A stretch of 64,000 nt of DNA from Vicinamibacterales bacterium (GTDB lineage: Bacteria; Acidobacteriota; Vicinamibacteria; Vicinamibacterales; SCN-69-37). The stretch is taken from NCBI GenBank assembly GCA_030827135.1, contig JAURFE010000001.1:1331946-1395945 (forward strand), written 5' to 3'. Each line of letters starts with the position of its first letter. Position 1 is the stretch's first letter. The translations under genes were made by a program, and so were the position numbers. Below, one piece after another: positions 3,580-56,506 of the stretch. Under the pieces are notes generated by a model. It was not told where the DNA came from. It saw only the letters and a list, made by a program, of their open reading frames with translations, and did no database searches.

Positions 3580-3758
3580 GAGTTATTGAGGATTGAGGAG
3601 GGAGGATTGAGGATTGGCAATTGCTGGATTGAGGATTGTGGGATTGATTGAGGGATTGAGGGATTGAGGGATTGGGGGATTGAGGGATTCAATCCCACAA
3701 TCCCTCAATCCACCAATTGCCAATCCTCAATCCTCCATTCTCAATCCTCAATAACTCG
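3580..3758. repeat. Large palindromic GATTGAG heptamer element, copy 1
   Basis: Both ends carry GAGTTATTGAGGATTGAG in inverted orientation. The arms go on as GGAGGATTGAGGATTGGC then CAATTG and differ at only a few positions, so the 179 bases can fold into one long hairpin. The centre consists of further GGGATTGA units. It carries no gene. It lies between the plus-strand terminator at 3567 and the stop codon of the minus-strand DGQHR gene at 3766. A second member is at 16922-17076. Confidence 0.8.
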
Positions 3759-11691: not shown

Positions 11692-11753
11692 GGGTTCATG
11701 GTTCATCGGTTCATGGTTCAGCGGTTCTGGCCGCCCAGCCGCCCACCCGCCCA
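11692..11753. repeat. GGTTCAT and CAGCCGCC tandem repeats abutting padR stop
   Basis: GGTTCATGGTTCATCGG-type units run into CCGCCCAGCCGCCCACCCGC units. The array ends at 11753, the base next to the TGA stop codon of the PadR gene (11754-11756). It separates PadR from the osmC-like promoter. Confidence 0.7.
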
Positions 11754-16921: not shown

Positions 16922-17076
16922 CGTTATTGAGGATTGAGGAGGGAGGATTGGCAATTGTTGGATTGTGGATTGTGGATTGATTGACGAATTGCGGCAATCC
17001 CCCCAATCAATCCCACAATCCGGCAATCGAGCAATTGCCAATCCTCCCTCCTCAATCCTCAATCCTCAATAACTCG
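16922..17076. repeat. Large palindromic GATTGAG heptamer element, copy 2
   Basis: The ends read CGTTATTGAGGATTGAGG and the inverse TCCTCAATAACTCG, with inner arms GGAGGATTGGCAATTG and CAATTGCCAATCCTCC. It shares termini and inner TTGGCAATTG with copy 1 at 3580-3758 but has a different centre. It contains no gene. Its right end provides the TGA stop for the VWFA remnant at 17066. Confidence 0.8.
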
Positions 17077-17282: not shown

Positions 17283-17364
17283 ATGTCCCCAGCCGCCCAT
17301 CCATGTGCCCAACCACCCAGCCGCCCATCCGCCCAGCCGCCCAGCCGCCCAGCCGCCCATCCGC
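17283..17364. repeat. CAGCCGCC/CATCCGCC octamer tandem repeat
   Basis: About ten 8-base units alternate CAGCCGCC and CATCCGCC, with diverged units at the left. The array occupies the promoter region of the AI-2E family transporter up to its -10 box. Shorter arrays of the family are at 11728-11753 and 16084-16121. Confidence 0.75.
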
Positions 17365-18471: not shown

Positions 18472-18602
18472 AGGGGTCCAGGGGTCCACAGGCATTTGAT
18501 GCGTACGTGGGCGGTGCGCGGTACGCAAGTTTTTCAACACGTCCGCAGGAGTCGAAGGAATTCGGCTGCTATTCGTGGCATGGCGGTTGAATGTGCCACT
18601 GC

Positions 18603-19016
18603 ATGGGTGTGAAGCGACTCGAGGACCTTGCAGCATTCCAGTTGGCAGTCTCATTCAAGCTCGATGTGTATCGGCTTGTGCGGGAGCATCCGAAGGCTGA
18701 ACACAACTGGGCGTTCCGTGATCAGCTCTTTGGCTCTGCATCGAGCGTGGAATCAGCGATTACTGAAGGCTGGAAACGGTACAACGCTGCGGAGATGGCG
18801 ACGTTTCTCCGCTATGCGCGTGCATCGCTGGCTGAGGCTGAACGCTGGTTGCACGACGGCGTCGCGAGGGGCTACTACCCTTCCGCTGAATTGGAGTCGG
18901 CCCTTGAGCACGCCGGCCGGTGCGGCGCCGCGGTCACGAACTTGTGGAAAAGCCTTCAGCCCTTCATCAACGAAAAGAAAAAACGGGGTCGAAGGCGACA
19001 GCCTCCGACCCCGTAG
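18603..19016 (+). CDS. Four-helix-bundle protein (23S rRNA intervening-sequence/S23 type)
   Basis: The 137-residue protein matches the TIGR02436/PF05635 family: MGVKRLEDLAAFQLAVSFKL at the start and SVESAITEGWKRYNAAEM in the middle, followed by FLRYARASLAEAERW. Homologues are encoded in 23S rRNA intervening sequences and include Avd of diversity-generating retroelements; the biochemical role is unknown. No rRNA or reverse transcriptase gene is near. The last dozen residues (KKRGRRRQPPTP) are read through a strong hairpin that is a terminator on the opposite strand. A second family member is at 38877. Confidence 0.8.
   Translation: MGVKRLEDLAAFQLAVSFKLDVYRLVREHPKAEHNWAFRDQLFGSASSVESAITEGWKRYNAAEMATFLRYARASLAEAERWLHDGVARGYYPSAELESALEHAGRCGAAVTNLWKSLQPFINEKKKRGRRRQPPTP
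18978..19013 (-). terminator. Intrinsic terminator for the minus-strand gene, inside element A
   Basis: On the minus strand a 13-position stem (CGGGGTCGGAGGC and its inverse, one mismatch, loop of four bases) is followed by TTTTTTCTTTT. It should end transcripts from the secreted-protein gene at 19082. The same bases encode the end of the four-helix-bundle protein on the plus strand. Confidence 0.75.
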
Positions 19017-19078
19017 GACTCCTGGACCACTGGACCCCTGGACTCCTGTCCTCCTGGACCCTGGACTCCTGGACCCGA
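19017..19078. repeat. GGACTCCT/GGACCCCT octamer array
   Basis: Eight units of the GGACTCCT family fill the gap between the four-helix-bundle stop codon and the convergent gene's stop at 19082. Confidence 0.7.
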
Positions 19079-22409: not shown

Positions 22410-23063
22410 ATGTTCACACGACGATTCGCCATAGCCGCCGCCCTCGTCTTCACCGCGGTCGCGCTGATCCCCGCGCAGGCGCCTCCTCCTTCTGGTGCGC
22501 AAACCACCACACAACCGGCCGGCCAGCGCGGCGGTGCCGGCGGCCGCGGGAGGGGCGCGATGCAGATCATGACGCTCACCGCGCCGTGGGCGCCTGGTGC
22601 GGAGATTCCGCTCAAACACACTCAAGTGGGCGATGAGATTTCACCAGCGTTGAGCTGGACCAACGTGCCGGAGGCCGCCGGCAGCTTCGTCTTACTGGTG
22701 CACGACGTGTCGGCCCCGGTGACCCCCGGCACAGACGACCTCCTCCATTGGCTTGTGTGGAACATCCCTGGGACCTCGCGGTCGTTGCCGGAGGGCATGC
22801 CGCAGGGTCCCGAGTTGCCTGACGGCACGCGTCAGATCAGCGTGACGGGGCCGAACTATCGCGGCCCCGGCGCGGCGGCGGCAGGCCCGCCGCACGTCTA
22901 CGTGTTCGAACTGTACGCGCTCGACGGCATGCTCGACATTCCGGCGCTCGGCCCCGAGGGAGCCACTGTCGCCCAGACACGCGCCGCGGTGATGGCCGCG
23001 ATGGCCGGCCGTGTGCGCGGCAAAGCCGTGACTGCGGGCACGTTCAAACGGAAGGGTACGTAG
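22410..23063 (+). CDS. YbhB/YbcL-type PEBP (Raf kinase inhibitor-like) protein, secreted
   Basis: The 217-residue protein has a signal peptide (residues 1-22), a Gly/Arg-rich linker and the bacterial PEBP domain: ISPALSWTNVPEAAGSFVLL, VHDVSAPV, LLHWLVWNIPG, and GPPHVYVFELYALDG. Members bind small ligands or inhibit proteases; here the target is unknown. A GTG at 22401 is an alternative start. The TAG stop lies inside a CGTAGGGC palindromic repeat. Confidence 0.88.
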   Translation: MFTRRFAIAAALVFTAVALIPAQAPPPSGAQTTTQPAGQRGGAGGRGRGAMQIMTLTAPWAPGAEIPLKHTQVGDEISPALSWTNVPEAAGSFVLLVHDVSAPVTPGTDDLLHWLVWNIPGTSRSLPEGMPQGPELPDGTRQISVTGPNYRGPGAAAAGPPHVYVFELYALDGMLDIPALGPEGATVAQTRAAVMAAMAGRVRGKAVTAGTFKRKGT

Positions 23064-23120
23064 GGCCCGCTGAACTGCAGCGGGCCACCCATGGCGCGCT
23101 CAAGTTCAGCGCGCCCTACG
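23059..23120. repeat. Pair of CGTAGGGC palindromic repeats in inverted orientation
   Basis: CGTAGGGCCCGCTGAACTGC (23059 onward) and the inverse copy GGCGCGCTCAAGTTCAGCGC with GCCCTACG (ending 23120) face each other between two convergent genes. The first copy supplies the TAG stop of the PEBP gene. Confidence 0.7.
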
Positions 23121-33028: not shown

Positions 33029-33134
33029 GGCGCGCTCAAGTTCAGCGCGCCCTGCGTCTCGCTGGCGCGCTACAACCCAGCGCGCCCTACGTACTTCTGG
33101 ACTCCTGGACCCTGGACCCTGGACCCTGGACCCT
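33029..33134. repeat. GCGCGC palindromes plus CTGGACC heptamer array at permease 3' end
   Basis: Two inverted-repeat units (GGCGCGCTCAAGTTCAGCGC with GCCCTGCG; GGCGCGCTACAACCCAGCGC with GCCCTACG) are followed by CTGGACTCCTGGACC and four CTGGACC units. The array ends at 33134, next to the permease stop codon at 33135. Confidence 0.7.
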
Positions 33135-37371: not shown

Positions 37372-38255
37372 CACGACTGACCACCACGGCGTTCCTGCTC
37401 GCAGCGGCGGTGACGGCCACCGCACTTGCGCAGCAACAGCCCATGTTCCGGTCGGGCACCCGGACGGTGCCTGTCTACGCCACCGTCACCGACCGTGACG
37501 GTCGACTGGTGCCCGAACTTCGCGAGGACGATTTCGAGATCTACGACAACGGCAAGAAGCAGGCGGTCACCATCTTCAACGATGAGATCGTGCCTTTCTC
37601 GGCAGTGCTCGCCCTTGACACCAGCGCGAGCATGACGATGAACATCGAGTTCGTGCAGGATGCGGCGGCGCAATTCGTGATCCGGATGCTGCCCGCCGAC
37701 TCCGCTGCCGTCGGATTCTTCAATTCGAAGGTGCGGTTCAGCCCCGGCCTCTCGTCCGATCGGGACGGTCTCGTCCGCTACATCCGCACCGAAATGCAGT
37801 ACGGCAACGAAACGCGGCTCTGGGATGCCGTGGATGCCGCCCTGGACCATCTCACTGAAGCCACCGGCCGCCGTGTGGTGGTGGCCCTGACGGACGGCGA
37901 GGACTGGGGCTCCTCCAAGGGCAACGGCGAAGTCCTCGATCGCGCCCAGCGCGAAGACGTGATGGTCTACGCCATCGGCATCGAATCCACCTTTCACAAC
38001 GGCGAGCGGTGGACGACAACGCGCCCCGGCGGATCGTTCCGCAAGATTGCGACAGAGACCGGCGGCGGCTTTTTTGAACTGAAGAAGACTGCAGACCTCA
38101 ACACCACCTTCTCGCGCGTCGTGCAGGAGCTGCACAGCCAGTACCTGCTCGGCTTCGCACCGGCGACACTCGACGGCAAGGAACACAAACTCGAGGTCAG
38201 GATGACCAAGCCCGGTCTCAAGGTTCGAGCACGGAAGACATATGTTGCGAAGTAG
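37368..38255 (+). CDS. Secreted VWFA-domain protein, tandem paralogue
   Basis: The 295-residue paralogue of the preceding gene shares the same order: signal peptide, RTVPVYATVTDRDGRLVPEL, MIDAS motif ALDTSASMTMNI and the C-terminal KPGLKVRARKTYVAK. The ATG overlaps the TGA of the upstream gene (ATGA). The following lipoprotein gene begins 14 bases inside it, so three genes are probably one transcript. The tandem pair suggests a recent duplication. Confidence 0.85.
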   Translation: MTRLTTTAFLLAAAVTATALAQQQPMFRSGTRTVPVYATVTDRDGRLVPELREDDFEIYDNGKKQAVTIFNDEIVPFSAVLALDTSASMTMNIEFVQDAAAQFVIRMLPADSAAVGFFNSKVRFSPGLSSDRDGLVRYIRTEMQYGNETRLWDAVDAALDHLTEATGRRVVVALTDGEDWGSSKGNGEVLDRAQREDVMVYAIGIESTFHNGERWTTTRPGGSFRKIATETGGGFFELKKTADLNTTFSRVVQELHSQYLLGFAPATLDGKEHKLEVRMTKPGLKVRARKTYVAK

Positions 38256-38766
38256 CGGCACGTTCACCCGAGGCCTGGGCCTCGCGGCCATCTGCATCCT
38301 CGGCACACTCGCCTGCGGGAAGACCGAGGACCCGAACGCGCTGATGCCCCCGGACGTCCTGCAGGTCCTGGTACCGGCGATGGACGGCTGGACGCGCGGA
38401 GCCGTCAGCGCCCAGACGATCGATGTGCCTGACGTGGCGAGTGTGGTGACCGTCACGTACACCCACGCCGACGGCGGCCAGCTCGACCTTGAAATCAGCG
38501 ATACCGCCGGCACGTCGTCGATGATTGAATCGCTCGCGGCCGAAGCCGAGTCACAGTTCAACCGGGTGATGGGGAACGGTTACCTGAAGGGGACCATGGT
38601 CGCAGGCTCTCCGGCCGTCGAGGCGTGGAACACCGAGAACCGCATCGGCGAACTCACGGTGCTCGTGAAAAAGCGCTACATCATCCACGTGGGCGGCACC
38701 CGCCTCTCGGACGCTGCGCCCATGCGCGCACTCGTGGAGCGCATCGACTTGGCGAAGCTCAGGTAG
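38242..38766 (+). CDS. Lipoprotein of unknown function
   Basis: A lipobox (ICILGTLACGK) gives a lipoprotein with a 150-residue mature domain that contains VTVTYTHADGGQLDLEISDT and IGELTVLVKKRYIIHVGGTR. The pattern suggests a small alpha-beta domain. It overlaps the second VWFA gene by 14 bases and is likely co-expressed. No family was recognised. Confidence 0.6.
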   Translation: MLRSSGTFTRGLGLAAICILGTLACGKTEDPNALMPPDVLQVLVPAMDGWTRGAVSAQTIDVPDVASVVTVTYTHADGGQLDLEISDTAGTSSMIESLAAEAESQFNRVMGNGYLKGTMVAGSPAVEAWNTENRIGELTVLVKKRYIIHVGGTRLSDAAPMRALVERIDLAKLR

Positions 38767-39343
38767 GACGCGCCGGGGTTGAGCGCGCCGGGGAACCTTG
38801 AACCAATGTTCATGGTTCATCGGTTCATGGTTCATGGTGCCGTTCTGGGTTCACGGTTCTGGGTGATGGGTTCGGGGTGCGCGGTGCATTGCCCGCGGTT
38901 GGCACAAGGTGTGCTATTGCTGGCGCCGTTGGAGCGAGACGGTACGAGGAACTTGATGCCTGGCAACTGAGTCGTCAGCTGGCTGACGAAGTCGCGAAAG
39001 TGCTCGCTACTCGGAGACCAGCGGAGGACTTCGATCTTTTCAATCAGCTCAGGTCCGCATCGAGGTCGAGTTGCCGGAACATCGCTGAAGGGTTTGGGCG
39101 CTTCTACCCGAGAGAATTCCGCCAGTTCTTGCTCATTGCTCGAGGCTCTCTCCTCGAGACTGGGGAACATTTGCGAGATGCCAGAGCCGCCGGCTGGATC
39201 GACGCGTCGCGCGAGGCAGAGTTGGTGCGCCTGCGTGACCGCGTACCGCGCACCCAGAACCCGGCACCCAGAACCCGGCACGCAGAACCACGCACCACGA
39301 ACCCAGAACAGCACCATGAACCATGAACCGATGAACCATGAAC
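38767..39343. mobile_element. Inverted-repeat-bounded element carrying a four-helix-bundle gene (element B)
   Basis: Arms of 45 bases at 38808-38852 and 39299-39343 are inverted copies matching at 44 of 45 positions. The match continues imperfectly inwards with TTCTGGGTGC-type units to about 38887 and 39245. The arms consist of GGTTCAT heptamers followed by GTTCTGG units. Between them is one gene for a four-helix-bundle protein. The right arm ends exactly at the base before the stop codon (39344) of the convergent epimerase gene. Bases 38767-38800 hold a diverged GCGCGCC palindrome. Mobility is inferred. Confidence 0.55.
38877..39326 (+). CDS. Four-helix-bundle protein (S23/IVP type), second copy
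   Basis: The core runs RRYEELDAWQLSRQLADEVA, FNQLRSASRSSCRNIAEGFG and RFYPREFRQFLLIARGSLLE, matching the same TIGR02436/PF05635 family as the 18603 protein, but with only distant similarity to it. The true start is uncertain: the GTG at 38877 lies in the left repeat arm and about 20 residues precede the conserved region. The last 30 residues (PRTQNPAPRTRHAEPRTTNP and on) are simply a translation of the right repeat arm. This indicates that gene and arms are parts of one unit. Confidence 0.75.
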   Translation: MRGALPAVGTRCAIAGAVGARRYEELDAWQLSRQLADEVAKVLATRRPAEDFDLFNQLRSASRSSCRNIAEGFGRFYPREFRQFLLIARGSLLETGEHLRDARAAGWIDASREAELVRLRDRVPRTQNPAPRTRHAEPRTTNPEQHHEP

Positions 39344-40342
39344 CTAGAGCCTGAACCCCTCCGCGAGCGGATCGTCCGGGCTCACGATGAACGTATGCTC
39401 CCCGGTGATGGACGCAGACCCCGTCAGCTCGGGAACGATCGCCTGATGGTCCCCGACCGCCGTGCGTGCTAACACGCGCGCGCGGAAGGAAGTGCCGATG
39501 ATGCTCTCGTGCACAAACGGCACGGCGTCGTCGACCAACCCCATCGCATCGAGCACCGCCAGCACGGCGCAGGTGCCGGTGCCGCATGGCGAGCGGTCGA
39601 CCTCGTGGTCCGCGAAGACTGTTACATTGCGCAGGTGTGCGTCCGGTGCGGACGGCGGTCCCGTGAAGATCGTGCCGTAAATTCCGGTCAGCCCAGCCTC
39701 AAGGGGATGCACCACCGGAATGAGCCGTTCAACCTCGCGCGCGATCAACATGCCCACGCGCTTCAGGTCGCCAAGGCGTTCCGGCACCACCGCCAGACCG
39801 GCCGACTCGGCATCCACCACCGCATAAAACGCGCCGCCAAACGCCACATCCACAAGCAGATCGCGACCGGCGACAGAGACCGGCAGCGCCGCGGCGTACA
39901 CAAACGACGGCACATTCCGGAACGACACCTCCTGCACACGCCCGTCGCTCATCGTCGCGCGCGCATGGATCTGGCCCGCCGGCGCGTCGAACACGAGGGT
40001 CCTCCGGCCGTCGGCGTGCGTCACCAGGCCGCGTTCGAACGCGATGGTCGTCACCGCGATGATGCCGTGGCCACACATCGTGCTGTAACCCTCGTTGTGC
40101 ATGAACAGGACGCCCACATCCGAGTCCAGCCGTTCCGGCACCGTCAGAAGGGCGCCGTACATGTCCGCGTGGCCCCGGGGTTCGAACATGAGAATCCGGC
40201 GCAGATGGTCCTGCGCCTCTCGCGCAAACGCCCTGCGCTCCAGCATCGTCGCCCCCTCAGGGGCTGGCCAGCCGTCCACGATGAGCCGGAGCGGTTCTCC
40301 TGCCGTATGGGCGTCAATCGTGCGTAAGATGTGGGGCGTCAT
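39344..40342 (-). CDS. Proline racemase family protein, probable 4-hydroxyproline 2-epimerase
   Basis: The 332-residue enzyme has the family start HILRTIDAHTAGEPLRL and both catalytic cysteines: NEGYSTMCGHGIIAV and DRSPCGTGTCAVLAV. Trans-3-hydroxyproline dehydratases replace the second cysteine by threonine, so an epimerase/racemase is favoured. It would interconvert trans-4-hydroxy-L-proline and cis-4-hydroxy-D-proline. The ATG overlaps the ATG of the divergent ornithine-cyclodeaminase-like gene by two bases (CATG at 40340-40343). AACAAT is six bases upstream of the ATG. Confidence 0.88.
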   Translation of the reverse strand: MTPHILRTIDAHTAGEPLRLIVDGWPAPEGATMLERRAFAREAQDHLRRILMFEPRGHADMYGALLTVPERLDSDVGVLFMHNEGYSTMCGHGIIAVTTIAFERGLVTHADGRRTLVFDAPAGQIHARATMSDGRVQEVSFRNVPSFVYAAALPVSVAGRDLLVDVAFGGAFYAVVDAESAGLAVVPERLGDLKRVGMLIAREVERLIPVVHPLEAGLTGIYGTIFTGPPSAPDAHLRNVTVFADHEVDRSPCGTGTCAVLAVLDAMGLVDDAVPFVHESIIGTSFRARVLARTAVGDHQAIVPELTGSASITGEHTFIVSPDDPLAEGFRL

Positions 40343-47159: not shown

Positions 47160-47396
47160 GGAACCTTGAACCAGAACCTTGAACCCTCGCATCCGGTTCA
47201 TGGTTCATCGGTTCATGGTTCAGCGGTGCCGTTCTGGGTTCTGGGCTTCTCGGGTTCTTGGTTCAGAGTTCGGGGTTCGCCGCAGGTCGCTTTGGGCCCT
47301 GCGGCGGATCTGCCAACTCCGGGTGCCGCACCCAGAACCAGGAACCCTGAACGCCAGAACCCGGGCCCCAGGAACAGCACCGATGAACCATGAACC
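47160..47396. repeat. Gene-less inverted-repeat element of the GGTTCAT family (element C)
   Basis: The left arm has AACCTTGAACC units, then GGTTCATGGTTCATCGG, GTGCCGTTCTGGGTTC and further GGTTC units to about 47277. The right arm (about 47328-47396) is the inverse, ending CACCGATGAACCATGAACC. The structure matches element B (38767-39343), but the 50-base centre holds no gene. The right end touches the stop codon (47397) of the convergent gene. The left side starts 17 bases after the stop at 47142. Confidence 0.75.
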
Positions 47397-56438: not shown

Positions 56439-56506
56439 GGCGCGCTGAACTTGAGCGCGCCAACAGACCGCCGCCGCGGGTTCATGGTTCATCGGTTCAT
56501 GGTTCA
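56434..56506. repeat. CGTAGGGCGCGC palindrome followed by GGTTCAT heptamers
   Basis: CGTAGGGCGCGCTGAACTTG with AGCGCGCC (56434-56461) supplies the stop codon of the VWFA gene. GGGTTCATGGTTCATCGG and further units follow (56478-56506). Two repeat families thus lie side by side between convergent genes, ahead of the receptor's terminator. Confidence 0.7.

Follow-up and report, generated by a model that had tools for sequence, protein, structure and literature searches.

Between the two flanking genes listed in Table 1, within the window (the whole 64-kb stretch of DNA analysed here), lies an element in which a single open reading frame (ORF) is enclosed by inverted arms that form its terminal inverted repeats (TIRs). 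Recomputation of the arms at 38808–38852 and 39299–39343 gave the same 44/45 inverted identity as that claimed in an earlier note on this DNA, and both arms continue out to 80 nt at ~82% identity. Their register is irregular (GGTTCATGGTTCATCGGTTCATGG...), is common to both arms and recurs at ~37 genomic places in the window genome (G000). The earlier note placed the end of the right arm one base before the stop codon of the neighbouring gene; the family consensus instead runs to 39344, giving a 1-base overlap with the racemase stop codon (39344–39346). The ORF at 38877–39326 matches the profile PF05635 (23S_rRNA_IVP) with E=1.2e-21 over residues 24–118, which bears out the S23/IVP-type gene proposed between the arms, and its last residues are, as had also been claimed, the right arm in translation. 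PF05635 is the sole domain matched by the protein, with no Y1_Tnp (PF01797). The predicted fold of the transcript is a stem of ~80 bp with the ORF in the loop, at a minimum free energy of −288 kcal/mol vs −213 ± 7 kcal/mol in shuffled sequences (z=−10.8). No rRNA was found in a scan of the 64-kb window and no RVT_1 reverse transcriptase in G000, in line with the earlier note, which saw neither here.

Table 1. Coordinates of the heptamer-array element, its flanking genes and related copies within the window
Feature	Position	Strand	Basis
Gene-free inverted hairpin, word ATTGAGG (L003 family)	3580..3757	+	
One-sided GGTTCAT-family array	11693..11727	+	
Gene-free inverted hairpin, word ATTGAGG (L003 family)	16926..17070	+	
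GCGGATG/GCCCA-word array (L004 family; weak assignment, 0.29)	17307..17364	+	
Second gene-bearing element (L002), GGTCC(AG) arms; PF05635 gene 18591–19016	18472..19076	+	
CTGGACC array (L002 family); syntenic G004 site without array	33097..33134	+	
Flanking putative lipoprotein-type gene, convergent with racemase gene	38242..38766	+	
Left TIR, GGTTCAT/GTTCTGG heptamer array, G-rich, 5' of gene	38807..38887	+	repeat comparison
PF05635 (23S_rRNA_IVP / four-helix bundle) ORF, locus L001	38877..39326	+	profile match, L029/L049 comparison
Right TIR, C-rich; last base is the first base of CTA (complement of racemase stop)	39264..39344	+	
Flanking proline racemase-family gene, PF05544	39344..40336	-	
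Gene-free hairpin, TIR as in 38807–39344; syntenic copy in G004 (L049) with PF05635 gene	47195..47396	+	
One-sided GGTTCAT-family array; syntenic G004 site with 561-bp two-armed element	56479..56506	+	

Within the genus, G001, G003 and G006 have an empty site at this position, with the flanking stop codons ~4 bp apart, and G005 has a short unrelated spacer. Among the congeners compared, the element occupies the locus only in G000 and its sister G004; the earlier note's question of whether all relatives carry it there is answered by its absence from the other four. With ≤1 mismatch allowed, G000 has 37 and G004 has 38 copies of the 24-nt arm end GGTTCATGGTTCATCGGTTCATGG, and neither five other congeners nor a reversed-pattern control yielded a match. 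The two genomes with this TIR are also those with an L001-type gene.

Most copies of the GGTTCAT family carry no gene; among those read, 100–200-nt hairpins and single arrays predominate, ending sharply at GGTTCAT. The L049 element of G004 is a paralogue of the window element, with 74% identity over 434 nt that include arm sequence, which indicates that gene and arms were duplicated together. Gene-free copies probably derive from gene-bearing copies by loss of the middle, and the opposite direction, from a gene-free to a gene-bearing copy, may also occur. Locus-specific concerted evolution of the arms was rejected for the GGTTCAT family, as the two arms of a copy resemble each other no more closely than they resemble arms from other copies; both simply match the family TIR. 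No target-site duplication was obvious by eye at the empty site or at the flanks of paired copies, which have diverged, and no transposase lies inside the TIR-bounded copies read, a subset of all copies. Presence and absence at orthologous sites suggest that the family has been mobile. In one G004 copy (L191, G004:C3:24969-25625), GGTTCAT TIRs surround a GntR-type regulator and no PF05635 gene, a possible case of cargo exchange.

Comparison with the G004 copies also bears on the state of the gene. The orthologue L029 and the paralogue L049 share a possible start, GTG-Gly-(Val/Ala)-Arg-Arg-Tyr-Glu-Glu-Leu, the GTG of which is GTT in the window copy, and L029 has a normal C-terminus, indicating that the array has replaced the C-terminus in the window copy. 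The window PF05635 gene is thus probably a decaying copy. The intact protein is under purifying selection, as indicated by a dN/dS of ~0.04 between L029 and L049; ratios of 0.04–0.16 were obtained for seven of the eight measurable PF05635 pairs and 0.37 for L004/L058, all of them rough values with synonymous sites close to saturation. PF05635 proteins have a median pI of 9.8 in this analysis. Among solved structures, the window protein matched only Xanthomonas XCC0516 (2GSC; E=5e-10), whose four-helix-bundle subunits are described as forming a homopentamer (PMC4990558, citing Lin et al. 2006). A divergent PF05635 branch (L003–L006, L048, L052–L056, L058), with the motif ...RSSxSxxxN...ARS..EF..K...EEADES..WL, is also found mostly within inverted arrays.

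The window element is not isolated: its genome has six such elements, and the class to which they belong occurs in many phyla. In G000, every PF05635 gene (6/6) is enclosed by inverted 7/8-mer arrays, and no two of the genes use the same word, the words being GGTTCAT, GGTCCAG, ATTGAGG, GCGGATG, CAATGGGG and AATCGGGG. A survey of 1.25 of the 3.24 Mb of G000 recovered 117 arrays, the arms of the genes themselves included, of which 93 could be assigned to these words (25 GGTCCAG, 19 ATTGAGG, 18 GGTTCAT, 18 GCGGATG, 9 CAATGGGG and 4 AATCGGGG) and 24 matched none of them. Arms elsewhere in the genome might, as the earlier note allowed, have been unrelated to PF05635 genes; these 93 carry the words of PF05635 loci. 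With arrays near PF05635 genes on the fetched contigs left out, the genome's own PF05635 flanks explained 78 of 100 dispersed arrays, whereas sets of six foreign flanks explained 24 on average and at most 43. The corresponding figures for G020, where 16 PF05635 loci were read, were 11 of 13 arrays for own flanks and 5.7 (maximum 8) for foreign ones; foreign words thus also fit some arrays in this test.

Several PF05635 loci are vertically inherited within the genus. A Mantel test of protein against word (r=0.38, 0/20000 permutations) was discarded as confounded, because several same-genus loci are syntenic orthologues; the link between protein and word is drawn instead from loci that share a word without matching flanks (L001/L049, L002/L032/L034, L005/L056 and L012/L019) and from the genome-wide tests. 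At one orthologous site, the word is AATCGGGG in G000 and G005 and CATCTACC in G004 (L006/L048 vs L055), and at the site of L002, G004 has a gene-free hairpin with another word (G004:C1:20640-20758). Both arms can therefore have another word in a sister species, and the gene at such a site may persist (L055) or be lost (L002 site). This turnover of words at conserved sites has no evident mechanism, and neither an element model nor a regulon model fits it well.

In samples of 67–80 kb per genome, four PF05635-bearing relatives had 7.5–16 arrays per 100 kb, and four of five PF05635-free relatives had no 7/8-mer arrays. The exceptions are G016, with 10 PF05635 genes and no array in the 80 kb sampled, and G017, which is PF05635-free, yet has two arrays. 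Hairpins of a distinct, REP-like family (GTACGTAGGGC[GC]CGCTGAACTGCAGCG[GC]GCC and variants) occur beside or inside heptamer copies, at 23050–23090, 33060–33090 and 56440–56465 of the window and at ~234983 and ~236946 of G000 contig C33; two Y1_Tnp genes of G000 are candidate RAYTs for this family.

Arms of this kind accompany PF05635 genes well beyond the genus. We collected 77 usable PF05635 loci from Chloroflexi, Gemmatimonadota, Planctomycetes, Proteobacteria, Bacteroidota, Acidobacteria, candidate phyla and others, and called arms from an inverted match within 500 nt of the gene (BLAST E≤0.01); phylogenetic non-independence was handled only by discarding or naming syntenic pairs. Inverted arms were detectable at 59/77 genes vs 30/482 control positions (6%) on the same contigs, the controls being mostly coding and all genomes drafts; in the window genome, 23/400 control positions had arms. 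Among seven loci inspected by eye, the five without arms by BLAST (L284, L212, L287, L282 and L279) all show inverted heptamer arrays, so that 59/77 is probably a lower bound. The arrays have a period of 7 (self-match 0.53 at lag 7 vs 0.25–0.32 at other lags) and a median of ~5 units, with arms typically of ~4–5. Polarity is fixed: in 59 of 62 cases the gene is preceded by the G-rich arm and in three it is followed by it (P=2e-14, at a slightly laxer cut-off), and G comes first in 35/39 loci of the window's order, which are partly non-independent, and in 16 of the 17 inverted heptamer pairs of the window genome.

A location inside rRNA was ruled out for the window and for all 38 cross-phylum PF05635 loci scanned with Rfam (0/38). 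As read from their flanks, two elements lie inside apparent operons, that of L284 (X. vasicola) between acc-type genes and that of L253 (Pseudoxanthomonas) between carA- and carB-like genes, which implies that read-through of the hairpin must be tolerated there.

Word specificity was also examined in six genomes by taking the heptamer only from beside a PF05635 gene and counting its doubled form genome-wide. GGGAATC x2 occurs 91 times in Xanthomonas vasicola, GGGGACC x2 81 times in Pseudoxanthomonas and GGCAGTC x2 18 times in Bosea, whereas off-diagonal counts are zero across the six genomes except for 19 occurrences of GGGAATC x2 in Pseudoxanthomonas, a relative of Xanthomonas. This Pseudoxanthomonas genome (G041) has two further PF05635 genes, neither with GGGAATC arms; as none of its three PF05635 genes has this word, no resident gene explains the 19 arrays, which are possibly an orphan family left after gene loss. 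GGGAATC repeats of Xanthomonas were described in 2015, at no fewer than 70 inverted pairs per genome (PMC4692102), and the reported word is the one flanking the X. vasicola PF05635 gene. Our literature search, in which subscription journals and preprints were thinly covered, found no published link between PF05635 genes and dispersed heptamer arrays.

Several known systems share part of this organization. The 23S rRNA intervening sequences (IVSs) of Coxiella and Leptospira have a protein of the same family (S23p/PF05635) and likewise form a long stem that has the ORF in its loop, the Coxiella IVS being 428 nt in length vs 538 for the window element; in Coxiella, tandem GACAGAT heptamers in strain-variable copy number precede the S23p ORF (PMC4990558). 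In contrast to these IVSs, the window element lies outside rRNA and belongs to a set with many intergenic copies, several words per genome and gene-free derivatives genome-wide. RAYT/REPIN systems, as described, resemble it in tying one gene to one dispersed palindromic repeat family and in placing that gene within its own repeats, with many gene-free extragenic copies (PMC2817692, PMC8049555). They differ in their Y1 transposase, in place of which the PF05635 gene encodes a four-helix bundle with no catalytic domain known, and in their repeats, which here are tandem arrays of heptamers whose word is specific to the lineage.

Intergenic heptamer arrays comparable with those found here have been reported as GGGAATC/GGGGATT in Xanthomonas and Nostoc (PMC4692102) and as TAACTGA in Beggiatoaceae (PMC4679880), in Xanthomonas with many inverted pairs. 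The portions of these reports drawn on here state no connection to such a gene, and the Xanthomonas repeats are described there as mostly without mobile-element association (PMC4692102). Avd of diversity-generating retroelements has a homologous four-helix-bundle fold (PMC10053308), but the present locus has no reverse transcriptase. Miniature inverted-repeat elements (MITEs) are similar in being short, non-coding, TIR-bounded intergenic copies with TIRs common to dispersed members, and differ in that here no parental transposase is known from the copies read, no target-site duplication was obvious by eye and the TIRs are tandem arrays.

The anatomy of the element, its word specificity within genomes, its fixed polarity, its presence or absence at orthologous sites, the gene-bearing and gene-free pair at one site and the purifying selection on the protein are established directly. 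With moderate confidence, we interpret it as a transposable-element-like family, in which a PF05635 gene lies in heptamer-built TIRs and is accompanied by gene-free copies, and in which host enzymes would copy or insert the hairpin. The best reading, by analogy, is an autonomous/non-autonomous organization as in RAYT/REPIN systems combined with the anatomy of a 23S IVS. The free-living intergenic relative of the IVS proposed in the earlier note is well supported by its gene family, its gene-in-loop hairpin and the heptamers of the Coxiella IVS, whereas a spread mechanism of its own is not, as no nuclease, transposase or reverse transcriptase is recognisable among the products of the element. 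Each PF05635 lineage is tied to its own heptamer word, and the basic protein, presumably a homopentamer by homology with XCC0516/2GSC, would bind its own G-rich array as an RNA or single-stranded-DNA hairpin and promote copying or insertion of that hairpin at intergenic sites through host enzymes. By analogy with 23S IVSs, the transcribed stem would be expected to be cleaved by RNase III, which could make insertions near or inside operons tolerable.

Some observations count against this interpretation. Vertically inherited loci imply that mobility may be slow or past, and the word changes at conserved sites (L006/L048 vs L055; L002) are unexplained by simple transposition. The lack of a visible target-site duplication and of a recognisable mobility enzyme, the exceptions G016 and G017, the GntR-type cargo of one G004 copy and the fit of foreign words to some arrays point the same way.

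A host regulatory system is an unlikely alternative, albeit the strongest of those considered: the protein would be an RNA-binding regulator or chaperone that binds arrays located in 3' UTRs and between operon genes, and the gene's own arms would serve autoregulation. Purifying selection on the protein speaks for such a system, as do the vertical retention of several loci across the genus, the insertion between apparent operon partners and the fixed polarity of the arrays. A selfish family is nevertheless a better fit to a genome with several independent words and genes, to whole loci that are present in one sister species and absent from another, to gene-free derivatives and to the ~37 TIRs that G000 retains beside a decayed gene.

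Even less probable is spread of the arrays by another mobile system, for example trans-acting reverse transcriptases or the Y1 transposases associated with REP sequences, with PF05635 as a frequent passenger. The hairpins are REPIN-like, Y1_Tnp genes occur in G000, G004, G037 and G041, and Avd, a relative of PF05635 proteins, acts together with a reverse transcriptase (PMC10053308). Against this, Y1_Tnp had no match in the array-bearing X. vasicola or G020, and genome-wide profile searches for RVT_1 had none in G000, G004, G027, G037, X. vasicola or Pseudoxanthomonas; neither enzyme is common to all host genomes examined, and neither is supported as a universal driver. A passenger would, moreover, not be expected to hold the word, its polarity and the lineage of the protein in a fixed combination, and the subset of TIR-bounded copies read contains no transposase. 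Ordinary slippage-prone intergenic tandem repeats, inverted around an orphan gene by coincidence or ascertainment, are very improbable: several bacteria are known to have heptameric repeats (PMC4692102), which are numerous in array-rich genomes, but the excess of arms over controls, the fixed G-first polarity, the irregular yet conserved TIR register with no match for its reversed pattern and the word specificity of each genome speak against them, and plain low-complexity coincidence is ruled out by the control positions, polarity and per-genome word specificity.

Collectively, these results fit a hitherto undescribed family of mobile elements, whether selfish or regulatory. PF05635 genes, previously known mainly inside ribosomal RNA genes, are here flanked by mirror-image heptamer arrays in many phyla. 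We suggest, tentatively, a cross-phylum mobile class whose sole protein is a pentameric four-helix bundle with no known catalytic domain that recognises a heptamer array. If so, the ~4–5 units per arm could match the five subunits, and protein and word would co-diversify. The heptamer repeats of Xanthomonas, and perhaps those of cyanobacteria and Beggiatoaceae, would then be gene-free relics, and 23S rRNA IVSs a special case that landed in rRNA. For any PF05635-bearing genome, the prediction is that the heptamer beside the gene is also dispersed in that genome. Such a class would raise the question of how DNA could spread by means of a protein lacking any recognisable catalytic domain, and would join the origin and spread of 23S IVSs, the function of the widespread, uncharacterised PF05635 proteins and the origin of intergenic heptamer repeats.
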